DNA of 64,000 bases. Source: Nitrospirales bacterium. GTDB taxonomy: Bacteria; Nitrospirota; Nitrospiria; Nitrospirales; UBA8639. The DNA is taken from positions 186,001 through 250,000 of the forward strand of contig JALDRJ010000002.1 of the NCBI GenBank assembly GCA_031315865.1, given 5' to 3'. Position 1 is the stretch's first letter. Each line of letters begins with the position of its first letter. Shown here in pieces: positions 27,243-57,195 of the stretch. Position numbers and translations under genes: made by a program. The notes below the pieces were generated by a model that was not told the DNA's origin, ran no database searches, and was given only the letters and a program-made list of their open reading frames with translations.

Positions 27243-28805
27243 TTACTCACATTGAACATAACTGCGGAGACCTTGGACGTACGAAGATTGTTGAAGTTTA
27301 TCAAGAGCCTTATTTTCGATCTGTCGGATACGCTCACGCGTCACACCATACACCTTGCCAATTTCAACACGATTCAATTCTTCCTGATCTTCACTCAACC
27401 CATATCGCTTCGTCACAATTTCCTGCTCTTTGGGACGTAGGATTGCCAAAGCCTGCAAGATACGTTCTTTCAATTGTTGCTGAGTCGCCAAATGAAACGG
27501 GCTCGGACCATGCGCACGCAACCATCCCGACGATGAACCCGACGCCGGCGATTCAACCATCAGAAAATCCAACGAAACCGGCTCGAGAATGAGCTCGCGC
27601 ACACGATCCACGCATGAATCAGAAAGCTCAGATCCATCCACAATCTCCTGAAATGATGGCTCACGGCCTAATTGTTGCGCCAACCTACGCTGAGCATGAT
27701 TCACGGCCCCCTTCGCCCTAGACATATGGGCCGGAATTCTCACAGTCGACTCTTGGTCGTCTAACGCTCGCCTCATCGCTTGGCAGATCCACCAGGAGGC
27801 ATAAGTGCTAAATTGACTCCCTTGCTGTGGATCAAAACGTTCGACGGCTTTCATAAGTCCGATATTGCCTTCTTGAATAAAATCCATCAGGTCGAGATGC
27901 GTACCGTAATACTTTCTCGCGAGTGACACGACCAGACGAAGATTCCGTTGAACCACGACTTGCACGGCCTCATTCATACGGACTTCCACACGGTCAAGTT
28001 CATCAACGACCTTGATCAATCTATCCAGTGACATCTGCGCGACCTGTTGCGCGAGCATCGTCCATTCTTGCTGAATCCTCCGTAACGGCTCGATCGTCTC
28101 ACTCTCCACATCCCTCTCTCCATAGACGTCCATCAACCGGCGAATCGATTCATCGAGTGACGCGAAAGAGACATCCATAGAGATTGGCCAATTGAGATGA
28201 TGCAAGATCTGTAAAACCGTGTCTCGAGAGGCGACGACCTGAGTTCTCACATCTTTCATGTTTTGGGAAAACTTAGACACGATGGAAGGCCTCAGGCCCA
28301 GGCGACGGACGAGATTGAGGATTTGAGTTTGCAACACACCACACTCGTGCGCGATGCGGTGTTGTTTTCTTGGGACATGCCAACCTGCGCCTTTACGACA
28401 ATCGGCGACTAAAAAGCGGCGCAAAAGTCCAATCGCGTCTTGAAGCAAAGCCCCCTGCGTCACCGTCTTCGCATGGTCAGGACTCACTTCATCCTGAAGG
28501 TTCGCCGCACTCTTCTGCCTTCGATAATCGATGAGATCGTTGATGGACCTGTCGCCTTTATCAACTGACACCAATAACTCAAGCAAACTATGAACCGTCA
28601 TGGGATTCGTATATAACAGGGAATCGTGGCGGTCCTTCCACGTTTGGACGTCCTTTAATAACCGTCGTTGTTCTTGATGGGTAGGCAATGGCGATGAGCC
28701 GATTTCACGCAGATAGAGTTCCACGACATCAGGCTTCCTGGAAATTGAACGGACAGCGCACGTTACGGTATTTCCACGAAGATCATATGAACGTCCACGA
28801 GGCAT
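27243..28805 (-). CDS. Sigma-70 family RNA polymerase sigma factor
   Basis: A group 1/2-like sigma factor, about 520 residues. Region 1.2 ([26 protein letters not shown]) is near the N-terminus, then a non-conserved insert of about 200 residues. Region 2 ([39 protein letters not shown], then [16 protein letters not shown]), region 3 and region 4 ([31 protein letters not shown]) follow. ATG 28805 is chosen because AAGGA lies 7 nt upstream; a GTG at 28871 is less well placed. A three-unit Pho box upstream implies phosphate-starvation induction, which is unusual for this class. Probably a second RpoD/RpoS-like factor, not the main sigma. Confidence 0.88.
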
Positions 28806-28896
28806 ACAAGGGTCCTTTCCATAATCCGACGTTGTTGAAGTAAGGCTCCTGATCGTGATCATTCCTTTCACCCACGCTCGATCACGATCTTGAGTT

Positions 28897-28941: not shown

Positions 28942-29089
28942 ATGTATCAAAAAAGAACTTTCGTTTCGCCGCGAATGGGCCTGAAGAACAGCCCCGCATA
29001 GGAGGGAACAATTGTCTTCTGGGCAGACAGTCACCTAGCAAGGTTGAAGCTGAGCGGCCCCCAACCTCGCCGGGTGACGTGATGCGCCA

Positions 29090-32784: not shown

Positions 32785-32824
32785 TATTTACATATTATTA
32801 GCGATGAAGTAACGGCTCGGTAAC
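32785..32824 (+). promoter_or_regulatory. Pho box upstream of the HExxH/PSD/Lgt operon
   Basis: TATTTAC (32785), TATTAGC (32796), AAGTAAC (32807), CGGTAAC (32818), spaced 11 bp. Ten nt after the last unit the -10 position (32835-32840) reads GATGAA, a weak match. Transcription would begin near 32847, downstream of the in-frame ATG at 32836, which argues for a later translation start. Confidence 0.7.
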
Positions 32825-32943
32825 ACTGAATACCGATGAATCGTGGTAGATTGATCACCAGCCATCTATGCGAATACACGCGAAGGGATGATGGAGGAGA
32901 AAACGATAGTGACGTGTATCTTTTAACGATCGAAGGAGGACGA

Positions 32944-35421
32944 TTGAGTTCCCACCAAAACAACATCTTTCCTGATACCTGTGACCACCAATCAGTCTTT
33001 TCTCAGGACGAACACATTCGAATACTTGATGAGTTTCTCAAGGCATCAATCGCCCAACATTCCACGGCAAGCGCTCGCGCTGGCTCGCTCCCTTTTCACG
33101 CGTACGATATTACCGCGGGAACAGAGAACGAATACCAGGCCGTCGTGATCGGGGACAAACATTCCGTTGATTTGCCCATCAGCTTAGAATCTTCGAATTT
33201 TTTCAAAAACATCGTCAGACAATCATGTTCCGGTTTGTCTTCGCGATCGGTGGTGACGGAACTCGAACAATTCCTGGATCAGTCCGCTCACACCGTCTGG
33301 GAAAATTCATGGGTCCGTTTTCCCCTCAGACGTTTGAGCCATTTCGCCCATCAAGTCCTTCAGCATGATCTGCTGGCCGACAAAAAACAGGCCGCGGGCC
33401 CTCGGCGAAGCGATATCGGTAAATTCGTGTTTTCGACACATGGAGAAGACTGGCTCCGCGTCCCGATCAGCTATGTACTCCGTTTGGCGTTAGCTGATGT
33501 CATCAGCGCGGCACCGCATCCCCACCACCTGATCCGTCAGGTTGGAGAGCAGCTGATGAATCATTATTTAAACGACAACACGTCTCCCGAAACGTTCAGT
33601 TTTTACGTCATCGAAATGAGTCCGAAACAGACCATGGGGCGTGCCGTGGGACGGGAGGCTTCGAAACGATATCTCCTGAGTCAACTGCTGGTCATGTATG
33701 CCAACCAAAAGTTTGACCTGCTCAAGAACGGGCAGCGGGCCATGATTTATTTTGCCCCACACCCTCCTATCCAGCAGAAGACCCTGAATCGTCTCATCTC
33801 GGACTCCTATTACCGGGATTTGTTCATGAATCCATGTTTGTCAGGGTGGGATAGCGGTGAAGACAAGCATCATTATATGGCCCTCTGTCACCAGGTGCTT
33901 TCTCGCAGCCACGTCAACGCCATCGCCAAGTTAAAAAACGCCGGCATTATCAAACGCAATTTAGTGACCTTACCCACACCATCAAACATCAGTCTGGCCA
34001 ATAACGGCACCCACATCAGTTTAGGCAGTCGAACCCTGACAGCCATGCTGAACCAATCCCCCAATTCTGGTTTATCGACGGGCGAAAAATACGTCGGGGA
34101 TTTAGTCATTAAGATCGTCGAACATTTCCTTCCTCTTTTTGTCGGCACCTATAGCGCCGCCCCCTATCGATTGGACTTTTGGGACTTTCATCCTGAACAA
34201 GTCCTGGGTTTTCTCGCTCACGAGTTGGATCACACCTATCTGCAACTACTCTGGCAACGGTGGAAACGCAAGGCGGGATTAAAAATTCTTGGAACCCCCC
34301 TGACCCCTATCGGCCCTCTATGGATGGATAAATTGCTCAGCAAGCACTTCGGACTGAAGGGCGACTTTATCCCGGACTTTCGATTAATCGATTATCTGGT
34401 CGTCCTGCCGAGTACCGACCAATGCCCGGCCCTTGACGGGACGCTCGGCAATGACCTTCGCCTCAAACGGGACCTTGGCGAGCTGGGGATTTACGATGAA
34501 CGCATGTCGCTGTACCTCCTGTACAAGCTCCGTGCCTGTTCGGAACGAGGGTTTTCAGGATTCGAGGGACGTTATTATAGTTTGTTCGAAAGTTTACTGG
34601 ACGACATGGCCGAAGCGGCCGATCTTCAAGCTCTCCTGACGGCTCTGGCTTTTCGATACATCTATCAATACGAAGTGACGCACGCGCATATTCCCGACAC
34701 GCCTTCCATCGAGAGCGAACGGCGTCAACTGTTCTTTGGAGCTGCCTTGCACGTTCCAACCTTCTACGTGCGCGCAGACTCCCGAAATCTCTTTTTAAAG
34801 AAAATCCTGTCAAAAATGAGCAAGATCCGCTTGAGTCACCGGTTCCCCGAATACATCCGCGCCCATCACCATGAGTATCGACGAGCGCTGTTGTCCATTC
34901 TCCGCGAAGATGCTCAGGATCTCGTCGAACAATTCGGGTTGGGGGATTTTCTTGATCGGTTGGCCGCCAGACTCGAATCTCCATCAGAATGTTCCACCTT
35001 TGGAAAGTTAACCAAGGGCATTCAGGAACAAGCGGGCGTTTCCTCACCGCTCAAATTATCTGGAGAGGAATGCAACGCCGCGGCCGAAGCCTATTACCGG
35101 ACCACCTTGAGAACTCGGCATATGCAAGAAGGGCTCGCGTGTTTGCGTGAGGATTGCCAGCGATTGGACTCCGACCCAAACCCGAAACTCGATCCGATAA
35201 GGCGCATGGCACGAAGTGCCCTGGGAACATCGCGAACCACTACGGAATTTCTCGATTCGATCCGGATGGATATTCTCGAAGAATCTGCAAGTCTTACGAA
35301 TATCACCAAGCTCATTCGATTCACACTGCTCACGGTCCATCTTGATATGGATTCACATTCTGAGTCGACTTCACCTTCACCGGCACCGACCCATGAGCCC
35401 CATTGCACATCAGTACATTGA
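32944..35421 (+). CDS. Large HExxH-containing protein of unknown function
   Basis: About 825 residues, no recognised family, no signal peptide or clear membrane segment. The one catalytic-looking motif is HELDH at residues 426-430 in GFLAHELDHTYLQLL, a HExxH zinc-metallohydrolase helix. The flanking regions are mixed alpha/beta. TTG 32944 is preferred: AAGGAGG lies 4-5 nt upstream, and the ATG at 32836 lies in or before the predicted promoter. Its 3' end overlaps the phosphatidylserine-decarboxylase-like gene by 29 bp. First gene of a Pho-box-controlled operon with lipid-enzyme-like partners. Confidence 0.8.
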   Translation: MSSHQNNIFPDTCDHQSVFSQDEHIRILDEFLKASIAQHSTASARAGSLPFHAYDITAGTENEYQAVVIGDKHSVDLPISLESSNFFKNIVRQSCSGLSSRSVVTELEQFLDQSAHTVWENSWVRFPLRRLSHFAHQVLQHDLLADKKQAAGPRRSDIGKFVFSTHGEDWLRVPISYVLRLALADVISAAPHPHHLIRQVGEQLMNHYLNDNTSPETFSFYVIEMSPKQTMGRAVGREASKRYLLSQLLVMYANQKFDLLKNGQRAMIYFAPHPPIQQKTLNRLISDSYYRDLFMNPCLSGWDSGEDKHHYMALCHQVLSRSHVNAIAKLKNAGIIKRNLVTLPTPSNISLANNGTHISLGSRTLTAMLNQSPNSGLSTGEKYVGDLVIKIVEHFLPLFVGTYSAAPYRLDFWDFHPEQVLGFLAHELDHTYLQLLWQRWKRKAGLKILGTPLTPIGPLWMDKLLSKHFGLKGDFIPDFRLIDYLVVLPSTDQCPALDGTLGNDLRLKRDLGELGIYDERMSLYLLYKLRACSERGFSGFEGRYYSLFESLLDDMAEAADLQALLTALAFRYIYQYEVTHAHIPDTPSIESERRQLFFGAALHVPTFYVRADSRNLFLKKILSKMSKIRLSHRFPEYIRAHHHEYRRALLSILREDAQDLVEQFGLGDFLDRLAARLESPSECSTFGKLTKGIQEQAGVSSPLKLSGEECNAAAEAYYRTTLRTRHMQEGLACLREDCQRLDSDPNPKLDPIRRMARSALGTSRTTTEFLDSIRMDILEESASLTNITKLIRFTLLTVHLDMDSHSESTSPSPAPTHEPHCTSVH

Positions 35422-36430
35422 TCGACAGACCGCTCATGTGATCACGGAGCGTTTTTTTGGCGACCGCATGGTCAATACTCTCTACTCCTCAGCGCGGGAG
35501 AGAGCGCCAGAATTATTTCACGCCCTCACGTCTTTTCGAACCTCACAACTCTTGAGTTATTGGACCTACGATTCGAGAGTCATGGCCAAATTCAGCGGCA
35601 TGAGTCGTTTCACCAGATCATTAGGGATTGACCTGAGCGAGTGCCTGGACCCTCCATCCACTTTGAACACGCCACGAAAAGTCTTTGAGCGAAAAATTCG
35701 CTATTGGGATGTCCGCCCGATGGATGACGCCCAGTCTACAGTCGTCTCGCCCGCGGACGCGCGTGTGTTGTTCGGCTCGTTTGCATCCTCGTCCATGTTG
35801 TTTCTCAAAGGAAAGTTTTTTGATTTCGTCGACTTACTCGGACAGGACAAACCCCTATGGAGGCATGCGTTTCAGGACGGCGATTACGCGATTTTTCGAT
35901 TAACGCCCGATAAGTATCATTACAATCATGCACCTGTCAGCGGGACGGTCATCGACAGTTACGAAATTCCAGGATGCTATCACTCATGCAATCCGGGCCC
36001 GGTCATTTCCCTGGCCACGCCTTTTTCAAAAAATAAACGAACCGTCACCATCATAGACACGGACGTCCCCGACGGATCACAAGTTGGACTTGTGGCCATG
36101 ATTGAGATCGTGGCCTTGATGATCGGGACGATCGTGCAATGTTATAGCGAGCACAGGTATGACGACCCACAGGACATGTCGAAGGGATTGTTCATGAAAA
36201 AAGGGCAACCCAAAAGCCTGTATCGTCCCGGGAGTTCCACGGATGTTCTGATCTTCCAAAAACACCGCATAACACCCTGCAAGGATTTGATCGAAAACAT
36301 GCATCGTCAGGATGTCCGGAGTCGATATTCTCTGGGGTTTGGACAACCGCTTGTCGAAACCGACATCACCGCACGATCAACGATCGCCACGGCCTACGAA
36401 AGCAAGGCGTATGGACAGGCTTCACGCTAA
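35393..36430 (+). CDS. Phosphatidylserine decarboxylase-family protein
   Basis: Pyruvoyl-dependent decarboxylases of this family self-cleave at a Ser. The catalytic Asp (VVSPADARVLFGS), the His (PDKYHYNHAPVSGTV) and the cleavage segment (RPGSSTDVLIF, in place of LGST) are all recognisable, so the autoprocessing triad appears intact. About 345 residues, with an N-terminal extension like plant/type II PSD. ATG 35393 overlaps the preceding gene. It may decarboxylate phosphatidylserine or another Ser/amino-acid conjugate; the Pho context makes simple PE synthesis less obvious. Confidence 0.85.
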   Translation: MSPIAHQYIDRQTAHVITERFFGDRMVNTLYSSARERAPELFHALTSFRTSQLLSYWTYDSRVMAKFSGMSRFTRSLGIDLSECLDPPSTLNTPRKVFERKIRYWDVRPMDDAQSTVVSPADARVLFGSFASSSMLFLKGKFFDFVDLLGQDKPLWRHAFQDGDYAIFRLTPDKYHYNHAPVSGTVIDSYEIPGCYHSCNPGPVISLATPFSKNKRTVTIIDTDVPDGSQVGLVAMIEIVALMIGTIVQCYSEHRYDDPQDMSKGLFMKKGQPKSLYRPGSSTDVLIFQKHRITPCKDLIENMHRQDVRSRYSLGFGQPLVETDITARSTIATAYESKAYGQASR

Positions 36431-36442
36431 ACAGAGGACCCC

Positions 36443-37492
36443 GTGGACAATTTCCAGTTTCTTGTGATTTTCTCCGTCACGCTCGTCTTGTTGTTCATGG
36501 GAGCATTTCGTTGGCTGCCACAGGAACAATGGCAAATGCTGGCCACTCTCCCCACGAGTAAAGCCAATCAGACAACCTGGAGAGGATTGAATCTTACCTA
36601 TTACGGGTTCCTCACAGCCTGCGCTGTCTCATTCGCCGTGGGCCTGTTTTTCATATTGATGGGAACCCTCAGCATCTCAATCAGCGCGACCGTTCAATTG
36701 GCGGCTATCCTGTTGGGCATCACGGTGCCAATGGCCAAATTGATCGCCAAATACGTTGAGAAGAAACCCCATACGTTTACGATCGGAGGCTCTTCATTCG
36801 TCGGCATCGTTCTCGCCCCTTTGGCTATCTTCTTTCTGAACTGGGTCCACGCCCCATCGTCCGCAGGAATCCCTCTGATGCCGGCCCTGGCAAGCCTATG
36901 GATCTCCTTCGCCTTCGGTGAAGGACTGGGAAGGCTGGCCTGCCTCAGTTTTGGCTGTTGCTACGGAAAACCCCTGCATTCCTGTCACCCGTTTGTTCAA
37001 AAATTCTTCGCACGAATACATGTTCGATTTACAGGAATGACCAAAAAAGCTGCCTATGAGTCAGGCTTGGAATCGATCCCCCTCCTCCCCATTCAAGCCC
37101 TGACCGCGATGGTCAATACGATCGCGGGATTCATCGGATTGATACTCTTCCTCAATACGCAATTCACGCTGGCCATCATCGAAACCACCGTCGTGACGCA
37201 AGGCTGGCGAGTCATCTCAGAATTCATGAGGGCTGACCACCGGGGACAGCGAACGTTTTCCGCGTATCAACTCATGGCCCTGCTCTCCATCGCCTATTCA
37301 CTCAGCCTCCTTCCCTTGTGGCCGAGTCCGTCAACCACGAAACCTTCTATCTTCGATGGTCTGACGATGGTGTGGAACCCGGCCTTCGTCCTTTCGCTTC
37401 AAATTTTGTGGATGAGTATCTTTCTCTTCACCGGTAGAAGTCAGGTCACGCATTCCACGATTGAATTTTATGTCCGTAAAGACCGGATTTAA
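36443..37492 (+). CDS. Lgt-like diacylglyceryl transferase family membrane protein
   Basis: About seven transmembrane helices. The family core reads FGEGLGRLACLSFGCCYGKP, where Lgt has its GR-x-GNF region, and the C-terminal WRVISEFMRADHRG equals the R-FxxEFxR segment of Lgt. True Lgt moves diacylglycerol from phosphatidylglycerol to lipoproteins. The CCYG variant belongs to a divergent branch with unknown substrate. GTG 36443 has AGAGGA upstream, 12 bp after the previous stop. Third gene of the Pho operon. Confidence 0.75.
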   Translation: MDNFQFLVIFSVTLVLLFMGAFRWLPQEQWQMLATLPTSKANQTTWRGLNLTYYGFLTACAVSFAVGLFFILMGTLSISISATVQLAAILLGITVPMAKLIAKYVEKKPHTFTIGGSSFVGIVLAPLAIFFLNWVHAPSSAGIPLMPALASLWISFAFGEGLGRLACLSFGCCYGKPLHSCHPFVQKFFARIHVRFTGMTKKAAYESGLESIPLLPIQALTAMVNTIAGFIGLILFLNTQFTLAIIETTVVTQGWRVISEFMRADHRGQRTFSAYQLMALLSIAYSLSLLPLWPSPSTTKPSIFDGLTMVWNPAFVLSLQILWMSIFLFTGRSQVTHSTIEFYVRKDRI

Positions 37493-38213
37493 CTCGTTGG
37501 TAATCACGGGCATCGTGATGTTTTCCTGGATGTGTGTCTGGCAACCGACAGTGGCCTGGCCCCAACGGGATAGCATTCCCGAGGGTTATCCAGAGTCGCT
37601 TCGAAAGGATCTGACTTCACTGTTCGTGAAGCAGGCCCACAACCCGGACGACATCCACGTGTTACTGGCGTTGTCTGAAGTCCATCTCAGCATGGGCGAC
37701 GATTTACTGACGAAGAAGAACGAGCGTCTGTCTGCCTACGAGATGGGCGTGAAGTATGCACAACAAGCCCTGGCCATCCAACCAGAGAATGCCGAAGCAC
37801 ATTTCTTGTACGCGGCCAACCTTGGGAACGCGACGCAAATCAAAGGGTACGCCGCAGGGATGATGAATGTCGGTGAAATCCTCTCTCATGTCCGGACAGC
37901 TCTTGCGCTCGCCCCCAACCATGCTCCAGCACATCAAATGCTCGGAGGCTTACTGGCGGAGCTTCCATGGATGCTGGGTGGAGACGTGGAGGACGCGCAA
38001 GCACATCTCGAGAAAGCCATCGCAATCGATGAACAGTACACCAATGCCAGAATTCTGTTGGCCAAACTTTTCATCAAACAAGACAAGCTCCAAGCGGCTC
38101 GCGACCAGCTACTGGCCGTGATTCACGCTCCGACTCCCCATTACCCCTACACCTGGAAAAATCAATTCCTTCCCGAAGCCCAGGCACTCCTGAAGACGAT
38201 CGCCGATCATTAA
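37470..38213 (+). CDS. Secreted TPR-repeat protein
   Basis: A signal peptide (LVITGIVMFSWMCVWQPTVAW) is followed by tetratricopeptide helices (YAQQALAIQPENAEAHFLYAANLG, TALALAPNHAPAHQMLGGLLAEL, HLEKAIAIDEQYTNARILLAKLFIKQDKLQAARDQL). It probably scaffolds protein interactions in the periplasm. It overlaps the Lgt-like gene by 23 bp and closes the four-gene operon. A TTG at 37461 is an alternative start. Confidence 0.82.
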   Translation: MSVKTGFNSLVITGIVMFSWMCVWQPTVAWPQRDSIPEGYPESLRKDLTSLFVKQAHNPDDIHVLLALSEVHLSMGDDLLTKKNERLSAYEMGVKYAQQALAIQPENAEAHFLYAANLGNATQIKGYAAGMMNVGEILSHVRTALALAPNHAPAHQMLGGLLAELPWMLGGDVEDAQAHLEKAIAIDEQYTNARILLAKLFIKQDKLQAARDQLLAVIHAPTPHYPYTWKNQFLPEAQALLKTIADH

Positions 38214-48774: not shown

Positions 48775-48803
48775 TTGTCAAAATTGTCAAAATGGGTTAT
48801 AGA
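48775..48803 (+). promoter_or_regulatory. Sigma-70-like promoter of the DUF2235 gene
   Basis: TTGTCA (48775-48780) and TATAGA (48798-48803) are separated by 17 bp. A TTGTCAAAA word is repeated in the spacer region with 9-bp periodicity. The start codon at 48934 lies about 130 bp downstream. This is not the Pho pattern. It is the main item in the otherwise empty 48557-48933 interval. Confidence 0.55.
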
Positions 48804-48933
48804 ACACACTATTATATACGTAGTTGACCCTGACGACATCCCCGCCATAACACGGCATCATTCTTTGATCGCGCCCGGCTTCTTTGAGGAAATCGGTTTT
48901 CAAAAAGCTTTATCACTCGCAAGGCCTTACCCG

Positions 48934-50433
48934 ATGAGCCTTCATTCACCTGCATTCAAAAAAATCGTGATCTGCTGTGACGGCACCTGGAATAAACCAG
49001 AAGTCGCGATGAATTCAAAACGCTACCGGCCGACGAATGTCCTCCGTATCGCAAGAGCTGTATCAAACGTCGATGAACAGTTTCATCATCAAATTATCTA
49101 CTATGATTCAGGCATCGGAACCGACGGGGGGCTGGGCCACCGGCTCATCGGCGGCCTGACGGGCTACGGACTATCCGCTCGTATCATGAAAGCCTATCGC
49201 TTTGTCTGCCATAACTACGTGGAAGGCGATGTGCTGTATTTTTTTGGCTTTAGCCGAGGGGCTTACACAGTCAGGGCGTTGGCCGGGATGATCGGAGCGG
49301 TTGGCTTGCTGCATGCCAACGATCTTCATCACCTGCCGACCGCGTTCCGTTACTACAACACCCATCCAAAACAACGGCCATCCTTGCCGTTCGCGAAAGC
49401 ATTCATTGCCTCTCACCATACCCGATCGGTCAGGATCAAATTTTTAGGTGTCTGGGATACGGTGGGCGCGTTGGGCATTCCCATCCCCTACCTTCGACCA
49501 TTCACGAAAAAATGGGTGGGGTTTTTCAATACGGAGCTAGGAAGCCATGTGGAACACGGATATCATGCGCTTGCCATCGATGAACGGCGAAGACCATTCA
49601 AACCAAATCTCTGGTCCCGGTACGAACAATCTCCAGGATCAGCCACCAAAGACGTCTGCCAGGTTTGGTTTCCCGGCTCGCATTCCGATGTCGGCGGAGG
49701 GGCCGACGATACGACGTTATCCGATGAGTCACTGCTGTGGATGGTGAATCGAGCCGTTCAGTGCGGGTTACACTTCCCCGATCACTTCAGGACTGACCTC
49801 GACAAGACTCACAGGCGGGAAAGCAGCAAGCCGCAGAATTCTCTGAGTCTTCCGTACAAAGGCTTAATTCTTATCGGCGTCTTTCCCCACAAACGTATCA
49901 TTGGAAATCGACGGGCGGTCGAACGCTTGTACGAAAGAACTCCCAGCACCTCGCCGATCTTACGAAACCTGCCACACCGCCTATCCGCCCCGCTCGAACC
50001 CGTCATCAATGAGATGATTCACGAAAGTGCGTTTCAAAAGTACGTGGCGTGCGAAATTTCAGCACAAGGCAGTTGCTATCAACCGCCGAATCTGGCGAAC
50101 GCGATCAACTCGCTCCCCGTGTTCAGGGAAAAATATTATCGAACACGTTCTCACATCAGAAAAGCACTCAACCTTAAAGGACAGGTTCTCTCCCAACAGC
50201 AGACGGAAGACTGCCGGGTTCTCGATTTTTCGCCTCACGGCGGGGCCAAACTGCAGATGTCGGAACCGGCCAACCGCATAGGTCAGACCTTTATCCTGAA
50301 CATTGATGACCCTGAATATAGGGGGAAAGACTATCGAGGACAAGTCGCGTGGCAGAGCAAGTACAGCCTTGGGCTGAAGTTCCTCTCAGAGACCGGAAAA
50401 TCGAATGACGATCCGCTTAGAGTTCCGCAGTGA
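48934..50433 (+). CDS. DUF2235 hydrolase with C-terminal PilZ-like domain
   Basis: 499 residues. DUF2235 (Tle1-like alpha/beta hydrolase): FKKIVICCDGTWNKPE, YYDSGIGT, nucleophile elbow GFSRGAYT, FLGVWDTVGALGIP, and the SHSDVGGGA Asp segment. The final 75 residues (EDCRVLDFSPHGGAKLQMSEPANRIGQTFIL, ending VAWQSKYSLGLKF) have the PilZ DxSxxG core but no N-terminal RxxxR, so cyclic-di-GMP binding is doubtful. ATG 48934 replaces a longer frame that has no start. It could be a lipase-like effector or an intracellular hydrolase; no T6SS genes are nearby. Confidence 0.82.
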   Translation: MSLHSPAFKKIVICCDGTWNKPEVAMNSKRYRPTNVLRIARAVSNVDEQFHHQIIYYDSGIGTDGGLGHRLIGGLTGYGLSARIMKAYRFVCHNYVEGDVLYFFGFSRGAYTVRALAGMIGAVGLLHANDLHHLPTAFRYYNTHPKQRPSLPFAKAFIASHHTRSVRIKFLGVWDTVGALGIPIPYLRPFTKKWVGFFNTELGSHVEHGYHALAIDERRRPFKPNLWSRYEQSPGSATKDVCQVWFPGSHSDVGGGADDTTLSDESLLWMVNRAVQCGLHFPDHFRTDLDKTHRRESSKPQNSLSLPYKGLILIGVFPHKRIIGNRRAVERLYERTPSTSPILRNLPHRLSAPLEPVINEMIHESAFQKYVACEISAQGSCYQPPNLANAINSLPVFREKYYRTRSHIRKALNLKGQVLSQQQTEDCRVLDFSPHGGAKLQMSEPANRIGQTFILNIDDPEYRGKDYRGQVAWQSKYSLGLKFLSETGKSNDDPLRVPQ

Positions 50434-56154: not shown

Positions 56155-57195
56155 TTATGACATTTCGCCAATCTTTTTATCAATCAAGTTCTGCGGCAGT
56201 GGGAAATACCCATCCTTTATGACCACCTGCTGACCCTCCTTACTATACACAAAACTTAAAAATTCCTTTACCAGCGGCGGCAAGGGTTTTCCTGGAGCCT
56301 TATTGACATAGACGAATAAGAATCGCGCCAACGGATATTTCCCGGATGACGCATTGGCAAACGTTGGATCAAAACAGCCTTGGCCTTTTTTGTCGGACAA
56401 TGGGATCGCGCGGACACCTGAAGTTTTATACCCGATCCCGCTGTACCCCATCCCTCCACGGTCCTCCGTCACGCCCTGTACGACGGACGCTGAGCCTGGT
56501 TGCTCTTTGACATCATCCCGATAATCACCTTTTTTCAAGACTTTCTCTTTAAAAAACCCATAGGTTCCTGACGCCGAATTCCTGCCATACAGGCTGACCC
56601 GCCTCGACTCCCATGTTCCATTGAGACCAGCCTTTCCCCACGTGTCGATCGACACATTGTAGCCGCGCCGACGGGTCTTGGAAAAGGCCGCATCAACTTC
56701 CTCCATGCTCAGACATTGCACCGGATTATCCTTGTTCACGTACAAAGCAAGCGCATCGACGGCCACGGGAAACGCCGTTGGCTTATAGCCAAACCTGGCT
56801 TCGAATTTATCCATTTCTTTGGCTTTCATCTGTCGAGACATTGGACCGAGTTGCGCGGTCCCCTCGATCAACGCAGGAGGAGCCGTGCTCGACCCCTTCC
56901 CTTCGATCTGAATCTTGACGTTCGGGTACTGCTTTCGAAAACCCTCGGCCCATAATGTCATCAGATTATTCAACGTATCAGATCCAATGCTGTTCACATT
57001 GCCGGATACGCCACTGACTCGTTCGTAAGCTTTCCACCCAGGATCCGTCATGGAATCACTTCCGGCAAACGTCACCGACGTACCCGTCAGGATCAAACCG
57101 AGCGATAGCCCGATGAATGTGGCGCCTTTCAAGAATGGAACGTAAGACGATCCATGCTTTTCGCCCAAATGATCAAGATTGTTTTCTGCCTTCAT
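56155..57195 (-). CDS. pstS: PstS phosphate-binding protein (main operon)
   Basis: Periplasmic high-affinity phosphate receptor. A signal peptide (residues about 20-45, FIGLSLGLILTGTSVTFAG) is followed by the binding fold: NSIGSDTLNNLMTLWAEGF, KGSSTAPPALIEGTAQLGPMSRQ, and NSASGTYGFFKEKVL containing the phosphate-contact Ser/Gly loop. GGAGG lies upstream of the ATG. First gene of the operon, directly under a four-unit Pho box. Confidence 0.94.
   Translation of the reverse strand: MKAENNLDHLGEKHGSSYVPFLKGATFIGLSLGLILTGTSVTFAGSDSMTDPGWKAYERVSGVSGNVNSIGSDTLNNLMTLWAEGFRKQYPNVKIQIEGKGSSTAPPALIEGTAQLGPMSRQMKAKEMDKFEARFGYKPTAFPVAVDALALYVNKDNPVQCLSMEEVDAAFSKTRRRGYNVSIDTWGKAGLNGTWESRRVSLYGRNSASGTYGFFKEKVLKKGDYRDDVKEQPGSASVVQGVTEDRGGMGYSGIGYKTSGVRAIPLSDKKGQGCFDPTFANASSGKYPLARFLFVYVNKAPGKPLPPLVKEFLSFVYSKEGQQVVIKDGYFPLPQNLIDKKIGEMS

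Follow-up and report, generated by a model that had tools for sequence, protein, structure and literature searches.

Near the middle of the window, that is, the whole 64,000-nucleotide stretch of Nitrospirales DNA that was analysed, four genes follow a Pho box (32785-38213 in all), and two of them resemble lipid enzymes, so the question is what such an operon would make when phosphate is scarce. Proteobacteria and SAR11 are well known to remodel their lipids in response to phosphate starvation. Marine bacteria do so via PlcP (PMC4796936), and under phosphate limitation Desulfovibrio alaskensis replaces more than 90% of its phospholipid with glycolipids and ornithine lipids (PMC5193443). The original prediction for this locus named lipid remodelling, salvage of phospholipid head groups and lipid modification of proteins as possible functions of an undescribed system; no description of this gene set was found in the literature searched, the coverage of which left most subscription journals outside.

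The operon and its Pho box

All four ORFs of the predicted operon are present on the forward strand and, as proposed, overlap or are closely spaced. Gene A (32944-35421) is a candidate ATP-dependent carboxylate-amine ligase, apparently soluble, and has the expected length of about 825 amino acids (825 aa) when translation starts at the TTG at 32944; the longest ORF is 32836-35421, but this TTG is the best start, preceded by the Shine-Dalgarno sequence AAGGAGG (32933-32939), and the relatives of gene A start at the same site or further downstream. Gene B (35393-36430; PF02666), a second PSD-like pyruvoyl enzyme, starts with the ATG at 35393 and overlaps gene A by 29 nt. Gene C (36443-37492; PF01790), encoding an Lgt-like membrane diacylglyceryl transferase, starts with the GTG at 36443 after a 12-nt gap and is overlapped by gene D (37461-38213), which starts with TTG at 37461 or ATG at 37470 and encodes a TPR protein (TPR_19, E 5e-13; TAtT, E 1.7e-6) with a hydrophobic, signal-like segment at the N-terminus. 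Terminator-like and promoter-like sites in the operon region occur at the frequency seen in shuffled sequence.

The Pho box said to precede gene A is present and is stronger than was claimed, being an array of four 7-bp half-sites (32787-32826, forward strand) with an exact spacing of 11 bp: TTTACAT at 32787, TTAGCGA at 32798, GTAACGG at 32809 and GTAACAC at 32820. The classical E. coli Pho-box matrix gave a weak signal across the loci and was replaced by a motif of two identical 7-bp half-sites derived de novo from 64 upstream regions of gene A in other species, with the window excluded. The log-likelihood of this motif is 100.5 at a spacing of 11, compared with 48.2 at 10 and 49.9 at 12, and the half-site consensus is roughly [GT]T[ACT]AC[AC]N. 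In held-out upstream regions of pstS, the motif scores above 8 in 16 of 16 cases, a score that 13% of 450 other genes attain (p 2e-10 in a Mann-Whitney test). Over all positions and both strands of the 64 kb, the array in front of gene A is the second-best arrangement of four half-sites; the best one lies upstream of pstS (56155-57195), and the third-best upstream of a sigma-70-like gene. The prediction from these upstream sequences that A-B-C is under Pho control is thus well supported. The neighbours of A-B-C loci include pstSCAB, phoU, phoB/phoR, ppk, ppx, CHAD/CYTH, SixA-like proteins, psiE and a phosphate-selective porin; a GDPD gene lies near the operon, and in Geobacteraceae genes for a zinc-dependent phospholipase C and a GT4 glycosyltransferase are found nearby. 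Such phosphate-related neighbours could also point to a role in the envelope or in polyphosphate metabolism.

The region 22496-59220 is a phosphate island that extends across the middle of the window and contains psiE, ppx, the sigma-70-like gene, a GDPD gene, two PhoX-like proteins, a phytase-like protein, a member of the inositol-monophosphatase family, CHAD/CYTH, ppk, phoU, pstB, pstA/C, pstS and a PhoR-like kinase. The sigma-70-like gene (27243-28871, reverse strand), preceded at 28950 by the third-best Pho array of the window, encodes a protein of 542 aa in which sigma-70 regions 2 and 4 occupy the C-terminal half only, behind some 300 aa of other sequence, and this protein may be a sigma factor under Pho control whose N-terminal part is unusual. 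Between ppk and phoU, the gene at 48775-50430 (forward strand) encodes a fusion of a Tle1-like phospholipase catalytic domain with PilZ.

Distribution and co-inheritance of genes A, B and C

Genes A, B and C are a conserved core shared by Nitrospirota, Desulfobacterota, Brocadia and Nitrospinae. Gene A was detected in 14 of 147 relatives, and the genome collection holds 311 stretches that carry it, with hosts that include Nitrospirota, Geobacteraceae, Syntrophaceae, Desulfobacteraceae, two Brocadia and one Nitrospinae genome. Among the best 80 of these 311 loci, which come from several phyla, B accompanies A in 76 and C does so in 69; in seven of the 11 loci without C, the locus ends at the end of the contig, and in another one (L086) C is located on the same contig, about 10 kb away. 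In Trichlorobacter and some other Geobacteraceae, the trio is interrupted by other genes, at the B/C or the A/B junction, and still stays together. As would be expected of an accessory pathway, A occurs patchily, in 14 of the 296 genomes in the phylum of the window and in 32 of 297 in the phylum of Citrifermentans.

The co-occurrence across genomes by which the proposed gene set was to be judged turned out to be perfect for the three core genes: of the 296 Nitrospirota genomes, 13 have a complete A, 13 an operon-type B and 13 a full-score C, and these are the same genomes, with a single additional weak match to C (41 bits in G255) that covers part of the model only. Across 55 loci, the distance matrices of the three genes show correlations of 0.83, 0.85 and 0.75, a level reached in none of 500 permutations and one to which shared descent contributes. 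In a congener of the window organism (genome G001, locus L029, 9900-11064), a deletion has fused residues 37-150 of A to residues 303-347 of C, with D behind them and a phytase-like gene alongside; B is gone completely, as is the greater part of A and of C, and this deletion scar implies that the three genes were lost together. The grouping of all four genes into one set, then, stands for A, B and C, with their perfect co-occurrence and synteny across phyla, and fails for D, which among the best 80 of the 311 loci is found solely with those of the Nitrospira type and was rejected as a core member; D is a lineage-specific accessory. Among the neighbours examined, there is neither a conserved lipoprotein partner gene nor an exporter that would belong to the unit, and the PADLOC defence models yielded nothing credible.

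Several genes that recur next to the trio have no Pfam match, namely, those at 7503-9698 of L058 (∼735 aa), 19671-20618 of L047 (∼316 aa), 7924-9408 of L049 (∼495 aa) and 8427-9191 of L038 (∼255 aa).

The three core proteins

Gene B belongs to the PSD family (PF02666, E 7.5e-37, above the Pfam domain cut-off), and the Asp/His/Ser triad noticed in its sequence is intact across the family, with D122, H176, H179 and, in the GSS self-cleavage site, S281 and S282 invariant in 65 sequences and G280 conserved in 64. B shares the catalytic domain and the self-cleavage residues with both PSD and PsiD-type L-tryptophan decarboxylase. It differs from PSD in scoring below all the curated NCBIfam equivalogs (its highest score is 134.5 bits, where 371 are required) and in possessing a DT-x-V-x-GG-x-x-GLV segment that is common to B and the PsiD-type amino-acid decarboxylases and is missing in E. 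coli PSD, although E. coli PSD is the best match of the B profile in the PDB (1.7e-18, compared with 3.6e-6 for the PsiD type). All 18 host genomes tested encode a separate housekeeping PSD of about 215-250 aa and a separate housekeeping Lgt (238-277 bits), so B and C are second, dedicated copies.

Gene C encodes, as predicted, a divergent Lgt-like membrane transferase. It is recognized by PF01790 (E 6.7e-9, 35.9 bits against a cut-off of 24.9), and its structural model (pLDDT 93) has E. coli Lgt (5azb, prob 1.00) as the best Foldseek match. The donor pocket is preserved: Y54, R256, E260 and R263 are present in 60 of 60 sequences and R164 in 59, so that C keeps the equivalents of Y26, R143, R239, E243 and R246 of E. 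coli Lgt, and these positions together with those of G27, G142 and G154 are invariant or nearly so. In E. coli Lgt, Y26, G27, R143, R239, E243 and R246 have been shown or proposed to be needed, as parts of the donor site or of a hydrogen-bond network, H103 and E151 are essential for prolipoprotein lipidation, and the H103Y mutant does not complement (Mao et al., PMC4728403). In C, by contrast, the position of H103 (HGGL motif) is occupied by V, I, T, L or A, and those of N146 and E151 by Cys in 60 of 60 sequences; C contains three invariant Cys altogether. These replacements point to, without proving, an acceptor other than that of Lgt. The differences alone do not exclude protein lipidation because the housekeeping Lgt of Desulfatibacillum alkenivorans (L154), which presumably is functional, is similarly changed, with Tyr at the position of H103 and GCCYG instead of NGELWG.

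The claim that gene A represents no known family was borne out: it has no match in Pfam or NCBIfam, nor in the PDB when searched by sequence, single or profile. A Pfam hit to DEAD_assoc (E 0.012, in 4 of 13 A sequences) was judged to be due to chance, and comparisons with a viral fold library and, profile against profile, with B produced nothing. An AlphaFold model of A was built from a 70-sequence alignment (pLDDT 80.6, pTM 0.87). The top 10 Foldseek matches in the PDB consist of nine glutamate-cysteine ligases, including the GshAB fusion, and one glutamine synthetase, among them 3ln7 (E 1.7e-3, prob 1.00) and 1v4g (prob 0.99, TM 0.50 by target length), with the probability for unrelated matches being about 0.1 or less. 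None of the E-values is below 1e-3; for calibration, the match of C to Lgt, a homology independently confirmed by Pfam, has an E-value of 3.2e-3 at prob 1.00.

Apart from the overall fold, A shares with GshA (PF04262) the order of the GxExE, WxxS, GxHx[NS], R and ExR motifs, which are invariant in both families: the GshA alignment has G25-E27-E29, W100-S103, G148-H150-N152, R235 and E328-R330, and the 70 sequences of A have, in that order, G95-E97-E99, W155-S158, G391-H393-S395, R445 and E577-R579. In the superfamily, the GxExE, GxHxN and ExR strands bear metal and substrate residues; the GxExE, GxHxS and ExR motifs of A lie on or adjoin the predicted strands 92-99, 392-398 and 575-581. The three main motifs appear in this order in one of 200,000 permutations of the invariant residues of A, which is a consistency check and no independent test, given that the motifs were picked after the fold had been suspected. 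A differs from GshA in its much larger size and in a long stretch inserted ahead of GxH, with ∼235 residues separating W-x-x-S from G-x-H compared with 48 in GCS, and shows no detectable sequence-profile similarity to it. Canonical GshA (PF04262) is missing in the 60 related genomes searched, and for this reason the GCS profile was built from the E. coli and plasmid-borne GshA sequences, a search for GshA in viral contigs as a further source of the profile having returned none; hhalign of A against this profile gave a probability of 0.4%, out of register. Because the profile comparison fails, the relationship is remote and rests on structure. From its fold and motifs, A is a candidate member of the glutamate-cysteine ligase/glutamine synthetase superfamily, and we infer from the fold that it is a ligase.

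The HELDH sequence at residues 462-466 of the long ORF of gene A had been taken for a HExxH metal motif, which would make A a zinc-dependent hydrolase with lipids or lipoproteins as substrates. The motif is indeed present in the window protein, but its last His is not conserved, with position 466 being Y in 53, F in 11, H in four and D in one of the 70 sequences, so that 64 of them have Tyr or Phe there, and H462 is itself replaced by R in one. The predicted structure, proposed as the check on this idea, points to the glutamate-cysteine ligase superfamily rather than to a metalloprotein: the probable fold matches are all glutamate-cysteine ligases, and there is no zincin among the credible ones. 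As a conserved feature the metal motif is refuted, and a hydrolase of this kind is extremely improbable.

A possible route to a phosphorus-free lipid

The simplest reading of a unit that is inherited as a whole, lies behind a Pho box and encodes a candidate ligase, a decarboxylase and a diacylglyceryl transferase is that it makes an amino-acid-derived lipid free of phosphorus. We give about an even chance to the proposal that A-B-C is a Pho-regulated module that replaces phospholipid with such a lipid; the substrates, the order of the steps and the lipid product are what we infer on top of the gene content. Under this scheme, A would be a soluble ATP-dependent carboxylate-amine ligase that forms an amide bond on the way to the head group, and B, as a PSD-family pyruvoyl enzyme that cleaves itself, would remove a carboxyl group on the same way, so that the two, acting in either order, would yield an amine head group derived from an amino acid. 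C would then transfer diacylglyceryl from phosphatidylglycerol to this head group, freeing glycerol phosphate for reuse, and D would be a periplasmic helper in Nitrospira only. A more specific version, in which the acceptor is a small amino-acid-derived thiol or amine, for example, a decarboxylated cysteine or gamma-glutamyl derivative, that receives the diacylglyceryl group through an Lgt-like linkage, as in the attachment to lipoprotein cysteine, is tentative and rather unlikely.

Most of the hosts tested lack two of the aminolipid routes known from phosphate-starvation remodelling: BtaA (betaine lipids) is absent in 14 of 14 host genomes and an OlsB-type acyltransferase in nine of 14, the window genome lacking both, which leaves room for a phosphorus-free lipid made by A-B-C. 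Of the functions named in the original prediction, lipid remodelling fits the enzyme content of the unit and its Pho box, whereas salvage of phospholipid head groups received no specific support.

The Lgt homology of C, which is unequivocal, invites a different reading, whereby the unit modifies lipoproteins or an envelope polymer during phosphate starvation, with C serving as an alternative Lgt for particular proteins, or for a peptide made by A, and with B and A tailoring the product. The altered housekeeping Lgt of L154, which also has GCCYG and lacks H103, and the presence of the periplasmic TPR protein D alongside in Nitrospira are compatible with such a function; nevertheless, we consider it unlikely because every genome tested already encodes a housekeeping Lgt, C lacks both H103 and E151, the residues essential for prolipoprotein lipidation in E. 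coli (PMC4728403), and the unit comprises no conserved lipoprotein partner gene. Somewhat more unlikely is the production of extra phosphatidylethanolamine, or the recycling of head groups, with B acting on phosphatidylserine and C and A on diacylglycerol or the head group. Synthesis of a phospholipid would be counter-productive in phosphate starvation, a housekeeping PSD is in place in all 18 genomes, and B falls below every curated PSD cut-off and contains the PsiD-type segment that E. coli PSD does not have, all of which weighs against the PSD triad of B, its closest solved structure being E. coli PSD, and the nearby genes for Zn-dependent PLC and GDPD. Finally, the apparently soluble ligase A and the partial resemblance of B to PsiD-type decarboxylases of free amino acids could be taken to mean that the unit makes a soluble or secreted metabolite, such as a gamma-glutamyl amine or a scavenging compound, to which C would add a lipid anchor. 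This seems quite improbable considering that the conservation of C is no less strict than that of its two partners, that C retains the full set of diacylglyceryl-donor residues, and that no exporter belongs to the unit.

The proposed replacement of phospholipid by A-B-C resembles the known remodelling by PlcP, Agt, BtaA and Ols enzymes (PMC4796936, PMC5193443) in phosphate-starvation control and in lipid-enzyme content, and the A-B-C loci of Geobacteraceae are likewise located near genes for phospholipase C and glycosyltransferases. However, none of A, B and C is one of these enzymes, and whereas the PlcP/Agt route draws its diacylglycerol from the phospholipase product, A-B-C would take the diacylglyceryl group directly from phosphatidylglycerol. 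The unit is a strong candidate for a remodelling route in anaerobes and nitrifiers of environmental importance (Geobacteraceae, Syntrophaceae, Desulfosarcina, Brocadia and Nitrospira), and the large, unannotated family of gene A gains a candidate ligase assignment that is open to test. Should the proposal hold, C would be an Lgt-like enzyme with a non-protein acceptor; in its more specific version, nitrifiers, anammox bacteria and metal or sulfate reducers that lack phosphate would make a free-standing phosphorus-free lipid by the chemistry of lipoprotein anchors. Cultured hosts include Trichlorobacter thiogenes, Citrifermentans bremense, Geomonas, Desulfatibacillum alkenivorans and Desulfosarcina alkanivorans.

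An additional protein of ∼815 aa is encoded beside or inside the trio in six loci of Geobacteraceae (L047, L058, L066, L039, L048 and L081). Its C-terminal half is a GT4 glycosyltransferase, and the N-terminal half, which contains ADLHVHSSHSNKPTYWAMRKF, looks PHP-like by eye and has no Pfam match. The Pho-box score upstream of this gene exceeds 8 in 64% of the cases, and the protein is perhaps a Pho-controlled glycolipid synthase.
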